A stretch of DNA of 22,767 nucleotides, from IMG/VR virus record IMGVR_UViG_3300048552_000112, positions 1 through 22,767 of that record. The stretch is one strand, 5' to 3'. The notes under the pieces were generated by a model. It saw nothing but the letters and a program-made list of their open reading frames with translations, was not told where the DNA came from and did no database searches. The position numbers and the translations under genes are program-made. How positions within the stretch are numbered: position 1 is the stretch's first letter; each line of letters opens with the position of its first letter. This DNA is from a virus. Positions 5,214-14,961 of this stretch are shown here, in pieces.

Positions 5214-7250
5214 ATGTCTAAATTACTAGCAAATCAAATTGCTAACTACAATGATAATGGTCCTGTTGAAGCAAAGGAAGGTTTGAATTTTCCTACTGGC
5301 AAACCCTTAGAAGTAAATGGTGCTTCAGGTAATGTCGGTCAGTTTCTTAGATCAACCGGTAATGGTGTTAGTTGGGATGATGTTTCTATCCCTGCTGCTC
5401 AAGTTAATGCAGACTGGTCATCATCATCTGGTGTTACACAAATTCTTAATAAACCTACAATCTCTGCAGTAGGACAAAGCGGAGACTACGGTGATTTAAT
5501 TAATAAACCTATTATTCCTCCTAATCAAGTTCAATCTGATTGGAATGAGACTTCTGGTCTTGGTGTTATTTTAAACAAACCAGCTTTGTTTTCTGGTTTG
5601 TATAGTGATCTTATTGGTAAACCTCAGATTCCATCTACGGTTACGGATCTATCTGACGTTAATCTTCCTAGTCCAATTCTTGATGGTACATATATTAAGT
5701 GGGATGCAGCGCAGGCAAGATGGATAGCATCTTCAGGTTCTGCTGGCATCACTGAACTCAAAGAAGATACTACACCTCAACTAGGTGGCAATCTAGACAT
5801 CCAAGGACATAATATTAATGGTCAAGGAATCATTGATATCAGTAGTCAAAGTAATAGAATTAGATTTCATTTTGATACTACTGCTGATCTTCCTAGTCCA
5901 AGTACTTATCATGGCATGTTCGCACATGTTCATTCTACTGGTGGTGCATACTTTGCCCATAGTGGAAACTGGGTTGAGTTGGCAAAACTAACTGATATCC
6001 CTGTTGATGTTGACACAACATATTCTCAGTCTGCTGCTTCAATTGCAACTGGTGCTGCGTTAAGACTGACTTCAAGTAACGGTACGATTGATGATATCAA
6101 TGTAAACGCAGGTACTGGAATTACTATTGATCAGGTAACATCGTCTGGATTTAGAATTAATTCTGTAGGTGGTGGAAGCGGTGGTGGTGCTACTGTTACT
6201 ACATCTGATGATGCACCAACGTCTCCAGTTGATGGAGATCTTTGGTGGAAATCAAATGAAGGTAGACTTAAAGTCTATTATGCTGACGGTAGTAGCAACC
6301 AGTGGATTGATGCATCTCCACCATTAGCACCTACTAATATTTCTAATCAATCATCTAGTATTGCAATTGGAGCACATAATACTGGACCATTTGGTAACAG
6401 TCCTGATAGTATTATAATCAATCCTAATACTGGAAGTATTATTAAAACTGCTGCTGGCATTGAAATCAATGGTCATATCTTACCATCTTCTAATGCTGCA
6501 TATGATTTAGGATCTGCTGAGTATAAAATTCGTCACTTGTTCTTGTCTGATAACTCAATGTGGTTAGGTGATGAGAGTAAAGTTACTACATCAAGTGGAA
6601 AAACTCAGATTAGAAAACGTAAGAAGAGAGATGGATTTGTACCCAGTTTAATTGTATCTCAGTTGATTAGTGCTGGATTAATTTCAACCAATACTCAGGC
6701 ACCTGCTCACGCACTTAACTGGTTTAATGCTAATGTATATGAACCAGACAAAGCAGATCTTTCGCTAGTTACTCTGTCTCAATGGTATCAATATGCTATA
6801 GCTGTTGGAATTGATACTAACGTAGTAACTACTGCAGGAGAATTATTCCCATCACCAGGTGATTCAAACTTTGAAGAGTCTGACTATGAAGAATCTGTTG
6901 AACTTGGACAATCAGGATTTACTCAATCACCTATAACTGATAGTTCAGATACGATTACAGTTGATCTTAGATCTCCTGCTTATGTTTTAAAAACACCAAA
7001 TGGAAACTTCCAAATTCAAGTTGCAGAATCTAAATTTGAAGATGGATATACTATTGAGTTTACTGTTTATGTTGATCAAGGAACTACCGCAGGCACTGTT
7101 AGTTCTATTTTAATTAAAGATTTTGCAGGCAGTTCTATCTCAACAACTCAACTTCGTGTTGTTGGAACTACTGCAGGAAATACCCTTCAGGTTTTCAATG
7201 TCAAGATGGTTTACCTGTCTGGTTGGAAAGCAGTTGTTGAAATTGTTTGA
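5214..7250 (+). CDS. Tail-fibre-like virion structural protein
   Basis: A 678-residue protein, Ser/Gly/Asn/Thr-rich with almost no Cys, typical of phage fibres. The N-terminal part carries short repeats ending in N/GKP: LNKP at about 78-81, INKP 96-99, LNKP 120-123 and IGKP 134-137. Two longer units (QVNADW...ILNKP and QVQSDW...ILNKP) resemble the repeats of cyanophage tail-fibre-like proteins. A DGDLWWKSNEGRLKVYY segment follows around residue 340, as in many marine phage fibre proteins, then a basic patch RKRKKR near 465 and a beta-rich C-terminus. The late promoter and the two downstream genes place it in a virion operon. The exact role (fibre, whisker or baseplate-associated) cannot be told. 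Confidence 0.85.
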   Translation: MSKLLANQIANYNDNGPVEAKEGLNFPTGKPLEVNGASGNVGQFLRSTGNGVSWDDVSIPAAQVNADWSSSSGVTQILNKPTISAVGQSGDYGDLINKPIIPPNQVQSDWNETSGLGVILNKPALFSGLYSDLIGKPQIPSTVTDLSDVNLPSPILDGTYIKWDAAQARWIASSGSAGITELKEDTTPQLGGNLDIQGHNINGQGIIDISSQSNRIRFHFDTTADLPSPSTYHGMFAHVHSTGGAYFAHSGNWVELAKLTDIPVDVDTTYSQSAASIATGAALRLTSSNGTIDDINVNAGTGITIDQVTSSGFRINSVGGGSGGGATVTTSDDAPTSPVDGDLWWKSNEGRLKVYYADGSSNQWIDASPPLAPTNISNQSSSIAIGAHNTGPFGNSPDSIIINPNTGSIIKTAAGIEINGHILPSSNAAYDLGSAEYKIRHLFLSDNSMWLGDESKVTTSSGKTQIRKRKKRDGFVPSLIVSQLISAGLISTNTQAPAHALNWFNANVYEPDKADLSLVTLSQWYQYAIAVGIDTNVVTTAGELFPSPGDSNFEESDYEESVELGQSGFTQSPITDSSDTITVDLRSPAYVLKTPNGNFQIQVAESKFEDGYTIEFTVYVDQGTTAGTVSSILIKDFAGSSISTTQLRVVGTTAGNTLQVFNVKMVYLSGWKAVVEIV

Positions 7251-7280: not shown

Positions 7281-8303
7281 ATGGCAATTAATTTTCCAAC
7301 ATCACCAAACAATGGTGATATCCATACCGCTGAAGGTATTCAGTGGCAGTGGGATAATACTGGATCAACCTGGAAATGTCAGGGTGTTACTGGCGTATAT
7401 ACATTAGGTATTGCATCTGTCAATTCACTTGGCGGAATTAAAATTGGAAATAATTTAAGCATTAATGGCACTGGAGTTCTTAGTGCAGTAATGAATCTCA
7501 ATAACGAGAGTATTTCCGAACTTATTGACGTTACTTTTAATAGTGTCACTCTTAATGGTAGTAGTGGTGGAGGTAAAGTTCTCGCATGGGACCAATCACT
7601 ACAGGCATTTGCACCAGTTGACCAGTCAGGTGGCGGCGGTGGAGGTGGCGGTATCGCATTGTCAGATCTCTCTGTCACATCAAATTCTGTTGGTGCTGCA
7701 TCTCTTTCTTATAATAATAGTAGTGGAGTGTTTTCATACACTCCTCCGGATTTATCCGGATATTTAACTGCAGTCACTGCATCAGATTTGAATGGTATTT
7801 CAATTGATGCATTATCTGATGTAGACACTACAACTACAGCACCTAGTGCTAATGATGTATTAACTTGGGATGGATCTAAATGGGAACCAGCAGCACCATC
7901 TGGTGGTGGTGGTGGATCAGGTCTTACTAGTAGAACAACTGCTCAAGCAACTTATAATGCTGCTGCTGATGGACAGAGTTACTATCTTGATATTACTGCA
8001 GCAAAAACATACGCATTACTTAAGATTCAAACATCACATGCTGCATGGGTAACACTTTATACATCATCTACTGCTAGAAGTAATGATATATCCAGAAATG
8101 AAGTTACGGATCCTCAACCAGGATCTGGTGTAATTGCTGAGATTATTACGACCGATGGTGGTACGCAACCTATTACTCCAGGTACTATTGGTTGGAATGA
8201 TGATGGAACACCATCAACAACTGCTTATGTTAAGGTTGTAAATAAAAGTGGTGGCACTCAAAATATTACAGTAACTCTACACTTTGTACAACTAGAGGTC
8301 TGA
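7281..8303 (+). CDS. Tail-fibre-like structural protein with poly-glycine hinges
   Basis: 340 residues with fibre-type composition. The N-terminus, MAINFPTSPNNGDIHTAEG followed by a Trp-rich stretch, is like the entry module of many phage fibre proteins. Two glycine runs (eight Gly at 117-124, five at 208-212) look like flexible hinges between beta-rich domains. A short motif (LSDV...W...KW.PA) near 178-204 echoes the neighbouring gene. The C-terminal third is a beta-sandwich-like region. Start ATG 7281 has an excellent ribosome site. It is directly followed, after one base, by the protease gene, so the two are probably made together. Confidence 0.8.
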   Translation: MAINFPTSPNNGDIHTAEGIQWQWDNTGSTWKCQGVTGVYTLGIASVNSLGGIKIGNNLSINGTGVLSAVMNLNNESISELIDVTFNSVTLNGSSGGGKVLAWDQSLQAFAPVDQSGGGGGGGGIALSDLSVTSNSVGAASLSYNNSSGVFSYTPPDLSGYLTAVTASDLNGISIDALSDVDTTTTAPSANDVLTWDGSKWEPAAPSGGGGGSGLTSRTTAQATYNAAADGQSYYLDITAAKTYALLKIQTSHAAWVTLYTSSTARSNDISRNEVTDPQPGSGVIAEIITTDGGTQPITPGTIGWNDDGTPSTTAYVKVVNKSGGTQNITVTLHFVQLEV

Positions 8304-8304
8304 T

Positions 8305-10698
8305 ATGAAAGAATATATTGTCTCATGTAGATCGTATGAAGATCTACAGAGTCTCTATAATGACATGGAGACAGAAGGTGGTGCGCTATACATTCCAGAT
8401 AGAGCAGTAGAACTTTTAGATCGTAGATCAGTTAGTAGGAATACACACTACAAATTAACAGAAGAAGAATCTGTATTAGTTTCTCAAGATGAGAGAGTTA
8501 TTGCTTGTGAATTATCCCCGGAAGAACTTGGTTTAGAACCAACACTTTGTGGATATACTAATCAAAGTCCATATGATATCGTTGGTGACTTTACAAAGTA
8601 TAGTACTACTAATGTTGCTCAACAAAATGATCGTCAGTGGGGACATCTTCATTCAGCTGGAACTATTGCTGAGAGAATGAAAGGTGTTTGGGGAACCAAT
8701 CAAAGAACAGTAGGTAAAGATGTAAATATTTTTAATGATGGTCGTCATGTTGATGTAGTTATTGTTGATGGTGAAGTTGGATTTGATTCTGATGAATGGG
8801 AAAGCGAAGCGGTTACTCCAGGACAAAGTAGATTTGTTCAGTACGATTGGTATGTAGAACATTCTAATCTAGGTTATGGTGGTAATTATTCACACCCTCC
8901 TATTAGTAATGCCGATGATCATGGGTGTCATGTTGCAGGTACTGTTGCTGGAAAGTATTATGGGTGGGCAAAAGAAGCAAACATTTATGCGCTTACCTTT
9001 GGAGGATCACATGGAGCTCTGAGAATTTTTGATTATGTAAGAGAGTTTCATAGAACTAAACCGATCAATCCTGTAACGGGTAGAAGAAACCCTACTATAT
9101 GTAATAATAGTTGGGGATATGCTTATACTGGTGATTGGAATTCTGGTGATGTAGAGTATATTACTTACCGAGGAACGACATATGATGCTAATAATCCCGG
9201 TCCTTCAGGGTGGACTAATGATGGAATCCAAGCTGACTTTGGTGCTAGATATAATCCAAATGGATATCCTTCTAGATATGAAGCTCTAGATCTAGATGCT
9301 ATTGATGCTATGGAAGAAGGTGTTGTTATGGTTGGTGCTGCCGGTAATGCAAATACATATTCTGTCCGTGAAGGTCATCAAGATTATAATAATAAAATTA
9401 AGATAAGTGGGTATATCCGTAATATGCATAGAGGGAGCTCCCCTTGCCATGCAAAGGGTTTCATTTGTGTAGGTTCAATTAATACTACTAGCGATCATCG
9501 CCGGTCATCGTTTACAAACTTTGGAGAAAGGATTGATGTCTTTGCTCCTGGTTCAAATATTCTTTCTATTGGTGGTGATGGAGCCAAGGGAAAGAATAAG
9601 GGACCTATTACAAGACCAGGATATCCTGCTGGTATTGATAACATGCTAACGATTAGTGGTACTAGTATGGCATCGCCTCAGGTATGTGGTATCCTTGCCT
9701 GTGCTGCTACGGGTAGAGAAAGATTTACTAATGATGATGCAATTCAATTCATTAGAAATTTTTCTCGTGATGACTTGATGGACTTTGATATTCTTGGTGC
9801 TACTGGTAACAGCTACAACATCTCTATTGATAGAGCTCAAACTACATCTCAAGATTACTACCTAACCGGAACAGATAGTAATGGTAATATTAATGGACTT
9901 GATCCGACTATAACTATTGATCCTAACGATACTTTGACTATCACTCTTCCCTCCGCTGGCGGGTATGTTTACTATCAGGTAGATGCTGGTCAAACTAGTA
10001 ATGGTTATCAAATGACTGATACTAATGGATCTCAGAGTTGGAACCCTACCATAAACCTCACCGTAGGTGACTCACTTGATATGGAGTTAGCTGCAAACAT
10101 GACCACTCACCCAATATATCTTAGAGATAGTAGCGGAAATAATCTTACGACCGGGGTCACTGGTCAGGGAGCTAATTCTCAAGGGAACCAAATTCTATGG
10201 GACACAAGTGGATATTCCTCTGGAACATACAAGTATCAGTGTGGTGCTCACCCTGGTATGCAAGGAACTATTAATTTAACTGCAGGAGCATCTTGGACTC
10301 ACCCTCTTTACATTAGAGATTCAAGTGGTAATAACATTCCTGGTGTAACTGGTCAAGGATTTGCTAACAATGCCACTCAAGTTATTTGGACACCGGGAAG
10401 TACATACTCTGGACAGACAGTTAAGTATCAGTGTGGTAGTCACAGTAATATGGAAGGAAGTATTGTTATAAATGCTGTAAGTAATATAGGACAGCAAGGT
10501 GGATATGATGATTACACTTGTTCAAAAGGTAGTCCTAACCGAGAAGTATTTTGTAGCAATCCAAGACCAACTACTGGATATATTTCTGGGTTTAAACAAT
10601 CTACTTTGAATGGTAGACGCACTACAGATAGGGAAGATAATAATCTTAATTACAATAGACAAATTTACCCAAGAGTTAATGGACTTTATAAACAATAA
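8305..10698 (+). CDS. Subtilisin-like (S8) serine protease with two C-terminal cupredoxin-like domains
   Basis: 797 residues. The N-terminal 140 residues look like a propeptide or virion-binding part. The S8 catalytic domain shows Asp155 (VVIVDGEVGF), His206 (DDHGCHVAGTVAG), oxyanion Asn348 (GAAGNAN) and Ser454 (SGTSMASPQVCG), so the triad is complete. After a beta-rich linker come two tandem copies (about 588-658 and 662-722) of a plastocyanin/amicyanin-like motif. Copy one has His602, Cys646, His649 and Met652; copy two has His666, Cys710, His713 and Met716, with 44 residues from the first His to the Cys in both. The CxxHxxM spacing equals that of amicyanin. There is no signal peptide, so it is probably a virion component that meets the cell surface. 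Copper binding is inference. The tail has a further Cys pair (739, 750). Confidence 0.9.
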   Translation: MKEYIVSCRSYEDLQSLYNDMETEGGALYIPDRAVELLDRRSVSRNTHYKLTEEESVLVSQDERVIACELSPEELGLEPTLCGYTNQSPYDIVGDFTKYSTTNVAQQNDRQWGHLHSAGTIAERMKGVWGTNQRTVGKDVNIFNDGRHVDVVIVDGEVGFDSDEWESEAVTPGQSRFVQYDWYVEHSNLGYGGNYSHPPISNADDHGCHVAGTVAGKYYGWAKEANIYALTFGGSHGALRIFDYVREFHRTKPINPVTGRRNPTICNNSWGYAYTGDWNSGDVEYITYRGTTYDANNPGPSGWTNDGIQADFGARYNPNGYPSRYEALDLDAIDAMEEGVVMVGAAGNANTYSVREGHQDYNNKIKISGYIRNMHRGSSPCHAKGFICVGSINTTSDHRRSSFTNFGERIDVFAPGSNILSIGGDGAKGKNKGPITRPGYPAGIDNMLTISGTSMASPQVCGILACAATGRERFTNDDAIQFIRNFSRDDLMDFDILGATGNSYNISIDRAQTTSQDYYLTGTDSNGNINGLDPTITIDPNDTLTITLPSAGGYVYYQVDAGQTSNGYQMTDTNGSQSWNPTINLTVGDSLDMELAANMTTHPIYLRDSSGNNLTTGVTGQGANSQGNQILWDTSGYSSGTYKYQCGAHPGMQGTINLTAGASWTHPLYIRDSSGNNIPGVTGQGFANNATQVIWTPGSTYSGQTVKYQCGSHSNMEGSIVINAVSNIGQQGGYDDYTCSKGSPNREVFCSNPRPTTGYISGFKQSTLNGRRTTDREDNNLNYNRQIYPRVNGLYKQ

Positions 10699-11159: not shown

Positions 11160-11423
11160 ATGCAAAAAGTAATTAATGTTTTAGCAGTACTATCATTTGT
11201 AGGAACTGCAGGTATCATCGGTGGAGGCACCGCACTATATCTCAATAAAGATTCTATTGTTGAGAATATTAAATCTCAAGTTGCATCTGCAGCAGCAGAA
11301 GCAATTGCTGGACAACTTCCTGGAATGATGGACTCTGCAATGCCAGAACTCCCTGGTGCTACTGGTGGTGCTATAGGTATGCCTGCTGCTACTGGTGGTG
11401 CTATTCCTTCCTTGCCATTCTAA
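11160..11423 (+). CDS. Small single-pass membrane protein with Ala/Gly/Pro-rich repeats
   Basis: 87 residues. A hydrophobic N-terminal segment (VINVLAVLSFVGTAGIIGGGTALYL, shown here as residues 4-28) is followed by an amphipathic helix and a repeated tail, LPGATGGAIGMP then PAATGGAIPSLP. An ACGGAG ribosome site lies just before the ATG. Between two other membrane genes of the same operon, it may be a minor virion or membrane component. No family is recognised. Confidence 0.75.
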   Translation: MQKVINVLAVLSFVGTAGIIGGGTALYLNKDSIVENIKSQVASAAAEAIAGQLPGMMDSAMPELPGATGGAIGMPAATGGAIPSLPF

Positions 11424-12058: not shown

Positions 12059-12864
12059 TGGACATACCTAATATTAATATACCGAATAATGATATTCGTG
12101 TTGGTGATATTCGTGATTTGAATATTAATGTAATGCCTGATTGGATGACTAATCCTCCACAGGCACTACCAATTTACCCACCCGTAACTACACAGGTGGG
12201 TATTCCTATTATTAATATACCAGGGTGTGTTGAGTCCCATAGGGATAGTAGTGAGAATCAAACACTCAAAGAAGAAGATAGAGATGGTGTACAAGTATTC
12301 TGTGATGCAGGAACACCTAGTTATAATCCAATAGATTATGATCCACGTAGGTTAACTATAACAAATGAGGGTCCACCACCTCCACCAATCATTCCACCAG
12401 ATACAAAAACACCAGAGACTCCTGCTACACCACCAGCTCCTAAAACTGATGCTGCATTAGCAGAGTGTCCTAGTAGAGCACAAGAATTAAAAAACCCTGT
12501 AGGAAAAATCCTAGAGGGTAATAAAAAGATTACTGGGTATGAGACAGTCGGAAAAGAATGTCTCCCTGTATTTGAAAACCTTACAATACCTGATCAGATT
12601 GTACAGAACATACCATCAGCAGGTATGATAACTGTTACCGCCTCAATTGCTGTAGTTGCGACGACCTCTGCACTGCTTGCAAAGCCTCTTGCTGATCTTT
12701 TGTTAAAAGTGGTGAAACCTGTGACGAAGAAGGTTGTGAAGAAGATTGCTGCCTTACGGGGTAAGAAGCCCCCTGTATTGTCTGCGACTGAGAGGAAGGC
12801 GGAGCAACGGGATCGGAACCGGGCGATAAAGATCTTACGTTCGGCACTGAAACCGAAGGGATAG
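12058..12864 (+). CDS. Proline-rich protein with C-terminal membrane segment and basic tail
   Basis: 268 residues from ATG 12058, which overlaps the previous stop; the in-frame TTG at 12052 is less likely. The N-terminus repeats the INIP motif (IPNINIPNND, then IINIPG). The middle is Pro-rich (PPPPPIIPPD, PATPPAPK) and has four Cys, suggesting an extended, disulfide-stabilised linker. A hydrophobic stretch at about 188-218 (ITVTASIAVVATTSALLAKP) is followed by a very basic tail. The last 230 bases are also read by the minus-strand gene. In that part codons such as CGG, ACG and GCG become common, unlike the rest of the operon. Probably a virion or membrane linker protein. Confidence 0.8.
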   Translation: MDIPNINIPNNDIRVGDIRDLNINVMPDWMTNPPQALPIYPPVTTQVGIPIINIPGCVESHRDSSENQTLKEEDRDGVQVFCDAGTPSYNPIDYDPRRLTITNEGPPPPPIIPPDTKTPETPATPPAPKTDAALAECPSRAQELKNPVGKILEGNKKITGYETVGKECLPVFENLTIPDQIVQNIPSAGMITVTASIAVVATTSALLAKPLADLLLKVVKPVTKKVVKKIAALRGKKPPVLSATERKAEQRDRNRAIKILRSALKPKG

Positions 12865-13651
12865 AGTGACGATGTTGCTTGACGGTATTAACATTGTTAA
12901 CTACCACGTCTGCACATATTTTAAAGTATGGGCTACGTGGGTGGAAACTGATACCTGCCTGCATTAACTGACCGCAATTCTTAAGTCTCGCAATCTCAAA
13001 ATCTAATCTTTTATTAGCAATCATCTGTTGCTGCATTTGAATCTGAGTATCTGCTGCTTGCTTACAACGCTCTTGCATTCCACCATCAAGTGGGAAAGAG
13101 ATTGTTGCAGATAATCCAACGCTTGTGCTATAATTTCTAGTGTCTCCAGTTCTTACTGGTTTCCTCCAGAGTTCGTGACCTGGATTATCAGGCACACCAT
13201 CACCCATCATTTCCATGGTAGTGATAGTCATGTCTGCACCATCTTCAAATGCACGAACAGTCTCACCATCTGAGTTGGTATATGTTCTATCATCATACCA
13301 AGATTCCCATGGCCAGTTCTTCACATTTTTTTGAGTCTCTACCATCTGACCTTCAAAATCTCTGTTGTCGTATTGAGGTTCCATGTAGTGTGTCTCAAAT
13401 GGATCCTTCTCATTACGAGCATGAGTAATGAATGGTGTTATGTTAGCAGTAGGTCCTTGACATGCGATACCACCACCATATTGGTTAGTGATATATGGTC
13501 CTTGTAATACCTGAATAGCTTGGTTCGTAACTGAGCCTGAACTATTAGCTATCGGATTTGCTGTTGCACTTACACCCCCGACATCTGCCGCCAGTGTGGC
13601 AGGGACAGTCGCAAGTTGAGTTAGACATAATACTACTGGGTAAAGATACTT
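12635..13651 (-). CDS. Secreted-type protein without a canonical start codon
   Basis: The frame encodes a signal-peptide-like segment (KYLYPVVLCLTQLATVPATLA, first residue at 13651) and then about 315 residues. Those include PTANITPFITHARNEKDPFE, a Trp-rich stretch, and a long helical segment (ERCKQAADTQIQMQQQMIAN); the tail is Ser/Gln/Pro-rich. There is no ATG, GTG or TTG near the signal peptide; the only canonical start in frame is an ATG at 13924, and the 90 residues from there look like a shadow of the overlapping gene. The start given here is therefore the beginning of the convincing coding sequence, not a known start codon. Frameshift from the upstream gene, a rare start, or a sequence error are all possible. 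The 3' end overlaps the convergent gene by 230 bases. Confidence 0.65.
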   Translation of the reverse strand, partial: KYLYPVVLCLTQLATVPATLAADVGGVSATANPIANSSGSVTNQAIQVLQGPYITNQYGGGIACQGPTANITPFITHARNEKDPFETHYMEPQYDNRDFEGQMVETQKNVKNWPWESWYDDRTYTNSDGETVRAFEDGADMTITTMEMMGDGVPDNPGHELWRKPVRTGDTRNYSTSVGLSATISFPLDGGMQERCKQAADTQIQMQQQMIANKRLDFEIARLKNCGQLMQAGISFHPRSPYFKICADVVVNNVNTVKQHRHSIPSVSVPNVRSLSPGSDPVAPPSSQSQTIQGASYPVRQQSSSQPSSSQVSPLLTKDQQEALQAVQRSSQLQQLRR

Positions 13652-14103
13652 GTGGTGTCGGTTACGCTGGTAACCTCTGTTGTTCTTTGAATCACAGTTT
13701 GATTCGTTACACCCGGTCCCATGTAGGTCTGAGTGAACTGGAATGCTGCTCCTGGTTCTGCGATCGTGAAACTCTGTCCATTTAAATTTAGACCAGAGTT
13801 CGCGCTTGTTACTTGCCCCTCTGTTCCTCCTAATGGATTCACTATCACTGAGTTTGTTGTTGGGTTGGGACTTAGAGATTGTCCCCCATTGGTCACGTTT
13901 GTGCCCGATACTGAATATTGCCATCCTGTTGCATAATCTATAGAGTTAATCGTCTCAGTCACCTTTGACGTTGTTTCTGTGTGGCTCGTCATGGAGCCCT
14001 GGCTGAAGTTTGGGACCACGGGGACCGCCAGGGCAGTTGCAGGTATGACACTTGCAACCACCGCACTTAGGACATACCAGAGTGTTATCCTTCCAGAAGT
14101 CAT
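13633..14103 (-). CDS. Secreted beta-rich protein, middle gene of the minus-strand trio
   Basis: 156 residues with a clear signal peptide (MTSGRITLWYVLSAVVASVIPATALA, cut about residue 26; given here as positions 1-26). The mature part is Ser/Thr/Asn/Gly-rich, with QYSVSGTNVTNGGQ and EPGAAFQFTQTYMGPG. It shares a pattern with the upstream gene product: YSVSG, then a Thr/Gly-rich loop, then PG(S/A)AF.(Y/F)(S/T)Q(S/T)Y. The two are probably paralogues. A CTAAATA late box lies 18 bases before the ATG on this strand. Function unknown; export to the envelope or periplasm is predicted from the signal peptide. Confidence 0.78.
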   Translation of the reverse strand: MTSGRITLWYVLSAVVASVIPATALAVPVVPNFSQGSMTSHTETTSKVTETINSIDYATGWQYSVSGTNVTNGGQSLSPNPTTNSVIVNPLGGTEGQVTSANSGLNLNGQSFTIAEPGAAFQFTQTYMGPGVTNQTVIQRTTEVTSVTDTTSIFTQ

Positions 14104-14120
14104 GATCTCTGATCCCCATT

Positions 14121-14127
14121 TATTTAG
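14121..14127 (-). promoter_or_regulatory. Late-type promoter box CTAAATA on the minus strand
   Basis: Minus-strand CTAAATA overlapping the TAA stop of the upstream minus-strand gene and 18 bases from the ATG of the next. The pairing of stop and box is compact and repeats the arrangement seen at 14645-14651. Confidence 0.55.
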
Positions 14128-14618
14128 TGTAGAATCGTGAGTTCAGAGACAAATTGTCCCGTAGCATTTGTACCAGCTCCACCAGCTGTTATCGTGAGAG
14201 CACCAGCAGTACTAAGAGTACCAGCTAGAGAACCAGCAGATCCTGCAGTTGTAGATGTAATATTGCCGAAGTTTGCTACATCACCAACAGTGACTGCACT
14301 CGTTGGAATTGCATCACCTTGTGTGTAAGACTGTGAATAACTAAAAGCACTTCCTGGGTTATCTTGAGTGGCAGCAATAGTACCAGGAGACATTATTCCA
14401 CTAGTAATTGCACCAGTAGAAATTGTGTTAACTGTGGTTCCGTCAGTAGTATCTACACCACTACCAGAAACAGAGTATGTACTTCCTAATCTTGTAACGT
14501 TAGTAGCAGCAGCATCAACGGTTAGTTGAACACTGGAAGATAATCTATGTGTAAGAGCACCTGCATTCGCTGCTGGTGCCGTCATCAGTAACATTATGAT
14601 AGGTAAAAACCTTTTCAT
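14124..14618 (-). CDS. Secreted Ser/Thr/Gly-rich protein, first gene of the minus-strand trio
   Basis: 164 residues from the ATG at 14618, chosen because a clean signal peptide follows directly (MKRFLPIIMLLMTAPAANA, cut after residue 19) and because a CTAAATA box is 26 bases upstream. The frame is open further but the added residues do not look like protein. The mature part is repetitive, rich in Thr, Ser, Gly and Ala, with almost no charged residues, like adhesive or fibre proteins. It is a probable paralogue of the next minus-strand gene (YSVSGSGV, NPGSAFSYSQSY). No domain recognised. Confidence 0.8.
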   Translation of the reverse strand: MKRFLPIIMLLMTAPAANAGALTHRLSSSVQLTVDAAATNVTRLGSTYSVSGSGVDTTDGTTVNTISTGAITSGIMSPGTIAATQDNPGSAFSYSQSYTQGDAIPTSAVTVGDVANFGNITSTTAGSAGSLAGTLSTAGALTITAGGAGTNATGQFVSELTILH

Positions 14619-14644
14619 ACGATTTACCAAAGCGGTATATATTT

Positions 14645-14651
14645 TATTTAG
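14645..14651 (-). promoter_or_regulatory. Late-type promoter box CTAAATA for the minus-strand trio
   Basis: Minus-strand CTAAATA 26 bases before the ATG at 14618. Together with the box at 14121 it suggests the trio is expressed late, like the virion genes on the other strand. Confidence 0.6.
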
Positions 14652-14653
14652 CG

Positions 14654-14679
14654 GTGTGCCACTGTTCAAAATGGCACAC
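14654..14679. promoter_or_regulatory. Inverted repeat between divergent promoters
   Basis: Perfect 8-bp arms GTGTGCCA (14654-14661) and TGGCACAC (14672-14679) with a 10-base spacer. It lies between the minus-strand late box and the plus-strand -35 box of the hli promoter. No T-run follows on the plus strand, so an operator or a barrier hairpin is as likely as a terminator. Confidence 0.5.
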
Positions 14680-14686
14680 TTTATGC

Positions 14687-14715
14687 TTGACATAAGCTCT
14701 GACTTACTATATACT
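14687..14715 (+). promoter_or_regulatory. Sigma-70-type promoter of the hli operon
   Basis: TTGACA (14687-14692), 17 bases, TATACT (14710-14715). The start would fall about 14722, giving a 20-base leader to the ATG at 14743. The TATACT box recurs in the other strong promoters of this window. Confidence 0.88.
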
Positions 14716-14742
14716 ATGTAAAGATTCATTACGAAACGTATC

Positions 14743-14961
14743 ATGACTGTAACAACTGAAGATGGTGGACGGACAAACATGTTCGCCAGAGAACCACAAA
14801 TGTACATCTCCCAGACCGACGCAGAACGTTACGGTTACGAGACATATGCAGAGAAAGCAGAGAAATTAAATGGACGGACTGCTATGGTTGGATTTGTTGC
14901 TGCTGTTGTCTCTTATGCTTTCAGTGGTAGCGTATTTTTCTTTGGAGCGTTCGGATTCTGA
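14743..14961 (+). CDS. hli: High-light-inducible protein (Hli)
   Basis: 72-residue chlorophyll-binding stress protein, thought to protect photosystems and bind free chlorophyll during infection. The ExxNGRxAMxG motif spans Glu40-Gly50 (EKLNGRTAMVG) and opens the single transmembrane helix (about 46-68, very aromatic at the end). The soluble N-terminus of about 35 residues is of the cyanophage type. It has its own strong sigma-70 promoter and overlaps the next gene by TGATG. Confidence 0.96.
   Translation: MTVTTEDGGRTNMFAREPQMYISQTDAERYGYETYAEKAEKLNGRTAMVGFVAAVVSYAFSGSVFFFGAFGF

Follow-up and report, generated by a model that had tools for sequence, protein, structure and literature searches.

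From its sequence alone, one gene of a 22,767-base virus record (the window, by which we mean the whole stretch of DNA analyzed here) had been read as a subtilisin-like protease in a virion-type operon, followed by two tandem repeats of about 65 residues that each carry His, Cys, His, and Met in the order of a type 1 copper site. This raised the question of whether the C-terminal region of a phage protease is a cupredoxin, whether it would hold copper, and what such a region would do on a phage protein.

A predicted S8 protease encoded among tail genes

The source of the window is a cyanophage, as indicated by the products that we took by eye, on the translations, to be those of psbA, psbD, transaldolase, two glutaredoxins, and thyX, together with a ribonucleotide reductase small chain detected by a Pfam match; going by related records, this cyanophage is T4-like. 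A reading-frame check of the window returned an uninterrupted frame of 797 amino acids at 8305 to 10698 on the plus strand, and an identical protein was found in a 192,818-base virus contig. The gene, its parts, and its upstream neighbors are the following.

5214 to 7250, plus strand: upstream gene of a tail fiber family (PHROG 9729 tail fiber protein, E 4e-69)
7281 to 8303, plus strand: tail-fiber-related gene directly upstream (PHROG 9627, unknown, E 6e-49; PHROG 9729 tail fiber protein, E 3.5e-28)
8305 to 10698, plus strand: predicted subtilase with a C-terminal cupredoxin cassette, 797 amino acids (open frame; PHROG 9158, E 1e-147)
8767 to 9759, plus strand: S8 catalytic region, residues 155 to 485 (PF00082, 89.7 bits; best stretch, residues 183 to 485)
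8767 to 8769, 8920 to 8922, and 9664 to 9666, plus strand: catalytic triad Asp155, His206, and Ser454 (residue positions read directly)
10477 to 10695, plus strand: conserved C-terminal tail, residues 725 to 797 (retained in a relative, L012, that is without the cupredoxin region)

The gene at 7281 to 8303 stops one base short of the start of the protease gene, and both upstream genes match tail fiber families, in agreement with the virion-type operon described earlier. The S8 relative of S-CREM1 immediately follows a gene for a tail pin and precedes, by one gene, one for the baseplate wedge; going by both sets of neighbors, the protease gene is placed among tail genes. The S-CREM1 relative is without the cupredoxin module. 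Elsewhere in the window, three ORFs at 12635 to 14807 on the minus strand, opposite to the long genes around them, have starts that look by eye like signal peptides, and two of the three gave no Pfam match at the cut-off. A short ORF at 11160 to 11423 matches PHROG 568 (E 5e-33), whose label, "plasmid stability," is odd for a conserved cyanophage gene.

Pfam assigned the first 500 residues to the subtilases, with a PF00082 score of 89.7 bits (cut-off, 21.8), and the three triad residues were exactly those named in the sequence-only reading. The product belongs, by sequence, to Peptidase S8 and is a predicted protease. The Asp/His/Ser triad was complete in 81 of 91 related ORFs; the remaining 10 had at least one triad position outside the alignment, and one of these had Glu replacing Asp. 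PADLOC labels the catalytic part "subtilase," and no defense role was inferred.

Relatives of the protease were carried by 53 records of the phage collection. In 18 of these, one place covered ≥80% of the protein, and in several more the match went only as far as about residue 483 to 502. Subtilases with one module were also present in S-H9-1, ACG-2014e/i/j, and S-CAM4. The ORF of L012 (603 to 2327) matched residues 1 to 498 (66% identical) and 732 to 797 (76%) only, and its catalytic domain is thus joined straight to the conserved tail, with no cupredoxin region between them. The tail itself (residues 725 to 797) gave no Pfam match.

The C-terminal region belongs to the cupredoxin superfamily

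Searched as a single sequence, the protein scored weakly against copper-protein families. For PF00127 (Copper-bind), it reached 12.8 bits as a whole and 15.9 bits for the module region, below the gathering score of 21.2, which one relative (L147) passes with 23.4 bits. Scores for the amicyanin model TIGR02657 were 17.6 and 21.7 bits against an equivalog cut-off of 110.2, and the protein is therefore not filed as an amicyanin. Other weak single-sequence matches (CofB beta-repeat, 2C_adapt, PPC, and para_beta_helix) were discarded, as was a match to complement factor H, with which no common ligand layout was seen.

A profile built from 13 modules of phage proteins (A1, 95 positions) gave 63 matches among PDB sequences at E ≤0.1, and the best 60 of these all carried copper-protein or cupredoxin-domain names. 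At the top were copper nitrite reductase (3.5e-7), plastocyanin (7.2e-6), and amicyanin (8.7e-6). In the plastocyanin alignment, the His, Cys, His, and Met of the module fell on the known copper ligands; the amicyanin rows shared the same C-x2-H-x2-M loop, but with the first His out of register.

The structure predicted for residues 505 to 724 had a mean pLDDT of 92.4. Since the PDB rows returned by Foldseek were mostly two-domain laccases at an rmsd of 16 to 17, these were left unused and we relied on single-domain alignments, obtained by re-aligning Foldseek's own top list. The best 50 structural rows were all cupredoxin domains of copper proteins (Z 8.9 to 10.6, rmsd 2.7 to 3.0, 93 to 104 aligned residues), and they fell in model residues 46 to 159, i.e., in one of two domains described below, the inner one; none of these 50 covered the other, split domain. 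The inner domain is, in the model, a Greek-key β-sandwich of the cupredoxin kind. Among virus structures, three β-sandwiches of giant viruses (pithovirus- and marseillevirus-like; BFVD A0A481Z6J5, A0A481Z7Q7, and A0A481YVH3) also matched the model, with E values of 7e-5 to 2e-4. By family profile and predicted fold, the C-terminal region of the protease belongs to the cupredoxin superfamily and has a putative copper site, as the earlier reading had supposed.

A complete cupredoxin probably inserted in a second one

Profile A1 matched the window in three places: 9883 to 9960 (profile positions 6 to 31), 10012 to 10284 (positions 2 to 94), and 10294 to 10476 (positions 32 to 94). The first and third matches are complementary halves that flank a complete module, which gave the following layout.

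9832 to 9951, plus strand: probable N-terminal half of the outer cupredoxin, residues 510 to 549 (A1, 9 bits; extended model, 26.6 bits; four model strands)
10012 to 10284, plus strand: inner complete cupredoxin, residues 570 to 660 (A1 positions 2 to 94, 121 bits; Z up to 10.6)
10108 to 10110, 10240 to 10242, 10249 to 10251, and 10258 to 10260, plus strand: inner ligands His602, Cys646, His649, and Met652
10294 to 10476, plus strand: C-terminal half of the outer cupredoxin, residues 664 to 724 (A1 positions 32 to 94, 58 bits; four model strands)
10300 to 10302, 10432 to 10434, 10441 to 10443, and 10450 to 10452, plus strand: outer ligands His666, Cys710, His713, and Met716

The strands of the predicted structure divided in the same way. 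In model numbering, those at 63-67, 73-75, 79-82, 86-91, 100-103, 125-129, 136-142, and 149-155 make up the inner domain, and those at 15-20, 23-28, 32-34, and 40-43, then 164-167, 188-191, 201-206, and 213-218, the outer one, with two further strands (2-4 and 50-59) outside both sets. From the complementary halves and the strand sets, it is probable that the second repeat forms the C-terminal half of a domain and that residues 510 to 549 form the first half. The sequence-only reading of two tandem repeats was thus right about the periodicity, which is real at 64 residues, and needs correcting in that the second unit is not by itself a whole domain. We consider it quite probable that a complete cupredoxin was inserted in the outer one, just before the first His ligand of the latter.

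An extended model trained without the window family gave 26.6 bits for the N-terminal half (E 3e-7 for one protein) and matched the C-terminal half from position 45 onward, or 52 in some relatives. When the structure was predicted without the N-terminal half, the inner domain still had block pLDDT values of 96 to 97, the blocks of the outer C-terminal half went from 92, 92, 80, 95, 94, and 95 to 91, 77, 85, 93, 88, and 90, and one strand was shortened to a single residue; this drop lends mild, model-based support to a split outer domain. Against nesting, the first A1 match has only 9 bits, and in most members of the window family the N-half match runs to position 72 to 77 and not to about 50, with a stop at 49 to 52 in L169, L185, and L010. 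The profile of the outer C-terminal half reached amicyanin only at E 0.02 to 0.11.

The same layout was sought in other proteins. Nineteen ORFs had an A1 C-terminal half of >20 bits beside a complete copy, and 18 of them (all but L090) were scanned with the extended model, whose training had included the complete modules of L169, L190, and L196 and none from L001 to L011. A separate N-terminal half of at least 15 bits was present in 15 of the 18, counting L001 and L002, which are the same protein; at that threshold, none was found in L011, L190, or L196. Two subtilase ORFs (L169:226-3300 and L185:181-3303) run, like brackets, from an N-terminal half through two complete modules to a C-terminal half, with one more complete module after it. 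If one cupredoxin was inserted in another, as is probable, this illustrates clearly how module insertion may enlarge phage tail proteins.

The four ligands are conserved and are lost together

Residues 602, 646, 649, and 652 were confirmed as His, Cys, His, and Met, as were 666, 710, 713, and 716, so that both ligand sets and their C-x2-H-x2-M spacing are exactly as first reported. A search of 208 loci yielded 271 module copies in 215 ORFs of 194 loci, 252 of them scorable after 19 with an unaligned ligand column were left out. Exactly H-C-H-M was found in 240 of the 252 and deviations in 12, counts that show conservation rather than abundance because the loci had been found through the module itself or its relatives. 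Homologues thus keep the ligand set, more than chance would give. Of the outcomes that the earlier reading had named as refuting, neither a fold other than a cupredoxin nor homologues without the four residues was seen. The C-x2-H-x2-M spacing of the amicyanin loop was seen in all but one of the intact copies (239/240). Among copies from loci not picked by the ligand motif, 104 of 112 were intact, as were 53 of 59 after thinning at 80% identity and 29 of 32 at 60%. In 66 thinned copies from such loci, the four ligand columns were 92 to 94% kept, a conservation equal to, and not above, that of the structural P, Y, G, and I positions.

Ligand losses occur together within copies and not independently. 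At least two ligands were missing in 5 of 173 thinned copies, compared with 0.8 expected, a number reached in 2 of 20,000 shuffles; with thinning at 60%, it was 4 of 96 copies, reached in 45 of 20,000 shuffles. L208 to L210 carry ligand-poor copies (E-S-N-A or E-S-S-A), and in the nested L185 the second His of the outer set is replaced by Asn, which suggests that the fold is usable without a full site. In L027:3250-6234 (S-SSM5, the gene after gp9) and similar ORFs, the module match ends at the strand before the Cys; this ligand-poor sister class perhaps has the same fold without the metal site.

The module recurs on other tail proteins and in bacteria

The sequence-only reading had put its emphasis on the protease; a subtilase with this module is not unique, and the module was found in many other tail-type proteins. 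A significant module was present in 117 of 120 loci picked by the motif only, in 133 ORFs, of which 8 also had S8. Seventy of the 133, complete and ≤1300 amino acids long, were scanned for families. The T4 gp9/10 N terminus was matched by 18, collagen by 11, S8 by 4, and S74 by 3, and 59 matched PHROG 677 (baseplate wedge tail fiber connector), a count that is partly circular because this profile itself includes the module. At E ≤0.01, at least one module match was found in 10 of 11 records searched whole, and none in S-CREM1. The 192,818-base contig had four matches in three ORFs, one being the identical protease; in both of the remaining ORFs, all four ligands are intact. One of these two matches the tail fiber family PHROG 9729, and the match of the second, to PHROG 677, covers a stretch in which the module may be included. 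The protease is one of the proteins that carry this conserved tail module, which probably binds metal. The module was also seen in Actinomycetia phage DSL-LC01, from a lake (L026:2038-3408), beside collagen-like genes and one for a tryptophan halogenase, and it is thus not confined to cyanophages.

With one phage module as the query, 30 bacterial loci were found, 28 full-length at 53 to 61% identity and two partial. By record title, these are mainly marine Flavobacteriaceae. The module lies at or near the protein end in the bacterial ORFs, and C-x2-H-x2-M is kept in the ORFs listed. The one bacterial ORF scanned (L213, 2978 to 4243) has the secreted repeat PF03640, which would fit an exported site accessible to copper.

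What the sites may bind and do

We think it moderately likely that the module provides a tail-associated protein with a true metal site of the copper type. Counted against this were the assembly of phages in the cytosol, which contains very little free copper, the persistence of ligand-poor copies, the single-sequence scores below the Pfam and NCBIfam cut-offs, and the S-CREM1 relative that has no module. Assembly in a cytosol low in copper would suit sites that, in the particle, bind mainly zinc or another cytosolic ion and only stabilize the fold, for which conservation of the ligands would be equally expected; we regard this as unlikely in view of the retention of all four ligands, Met included, with the amicyanin spacing, and of the copper proteins or cupredoxin domains that make up the best 60 of the 63 profile matches in the PDB. 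Somewhat less likely still is a β-sandwich that has ceased to bind metal and retains these residues because they serve folding or the binding of a ligand on the host surface. It would account for ligand-poor relatives in the same kinds of genes and for ligand columns no more conserved than the structural P, Y, G, and I, but sits poorly with concerted ligand losses and a spacing that is exact in 239 of 240 copies.

The sequence-only reading had also ventured redox sensing at the cell surface; in this case, redox sensing or electron transfer there would switch the protease. Cupredoxins elsewhere are electron carriers, and fold and ligands fit, but S8 was found in just 8 of the 133 module ORFs of the motif-picked loci, which excludes switching of a protease as the role of the module in general, and we hold this idea to be very improbable. 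That a tandem repeat resembles copper motifs by chance might be argued from single-sequence scores below the Pfam and NCBIfam cut-offs, and from a PDB search in which complement factor H, an unrelated chain, ranked over amicyanin; the family profile, the predicted fold, and the ligand conservation contradict this, and we give it practically no credence.

With a copper-type site as the preferred reading, the protein would be a subtilase that a T4-like cyanophage carries on its virion, associated with the tail or baseplate, with an exchangeable cassette between the catalytic domain and the conserved tail. The cassette would comprise two cupredoxins, each with a full type 1 ligand set, one contiguous (about 570 to 660) and one probably split (about 510 to 549 and 664 to 724). 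Cellular subtilases have C-terminal sandwiches, and by comparison with these the modules would be β-sandwich accessories, binding copper once the particle is out of the cytoplasm. The bound metal would stiffen an outward-facing part of the tail protein, and the sandwich would help to hold the protease at the host surface. This stabilizing or surface-holding role is a tentative suggestion, and we infer it, like the identity of the metal and its loading outside the cytosol, from the fold, the ligands, and the gene context.

More generally, marine tailed phages might commonly build a mobile, sometimes nested cupredoxin cassette into baseplate connectors, fibers, and a protease of their tails and take up copper with it, although we consider this doubtful as a whole. 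Were it true, particles released by lysis could acquire copper and use it at the host surface, as proposed for iron in other tails, and seawater would contain a pool of particles that bind copper strongly. Provided that the sites do hold copper, some marine phage tails would form a class of copper proteins. They would be the copper equivalent of the iron Trojan Horse that has been proposed and candidates for a biological ligand of copper in seawater, and a tail protein would have a way to be stabilized or to engage a cell.

Comparison with known systems

In the open-licence literature, which covered few subscription papers and no bioRxiv preprints, no account of a cupredoxin as part of a phage virion was found, and the sole match for cyanophage together with cupredoxin was on Borgs. 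An S8 peptidase is mentioned for P-HM1/P-HM2, and 41 proteins are reported for S-SM1 particles, in a paper (Sullivan et al. 2010, PMC3037559) whose main text is without the word copper and has two plastocyanin passages, both on the metabolic petE gene. For S-CREM1, 14 virion proteins are reported (PMC9964418), and the word peptidase is absent from the main text. The accessible parts of two further papers (PMC9602691 and PMC10665884) contain no cupredoxin, plastocyanin, or subtilisin and use "copper" solely for microscope grids.

The subtilisin-like serine protease of S-H9-1 (QPB08157.1, PHROG 9158) is 38.6% identical over residues 2 to 659 and likewise has a C-terminal module, but only a single one, without the nested second site and without the C-terminal tail behind it. 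The module shares its fold and ligand order with amicyanin and plastocyanin, and the C-x2-H-x2-M loop with amicyanin. Whereas those are free-standing secreted electron carriers, the window module forms one domain in a protein of the phage tail region and scores below the equivalog cut-offs. The purple cupredoxin of Nitrosopumilus maritimus (PDB 5fc9; Z 8.9, rmsd 2.8 over 93 residues, 16% identity) is a single domain that, unlike the window module, is cellular and free-standing. Lipoproteins of marine Flavobacteriaceae (e.g., L213) have the same C-terminal module as the phage protein; they differ in being cellular, and in L213 the module is joined to PF03640 repeats and not to a protease. A metal in the host-facing part of the tail, as proposed here, has a parallel in the iron of T4 gp37-type tail fibers, the subject of the Ferrojan or Trojan Horse idea proposed for marine phages; the iron fibers use HxH pairs, whereas the window module has the Cys/His/Met site of a cupredoxin (PMC11705849).
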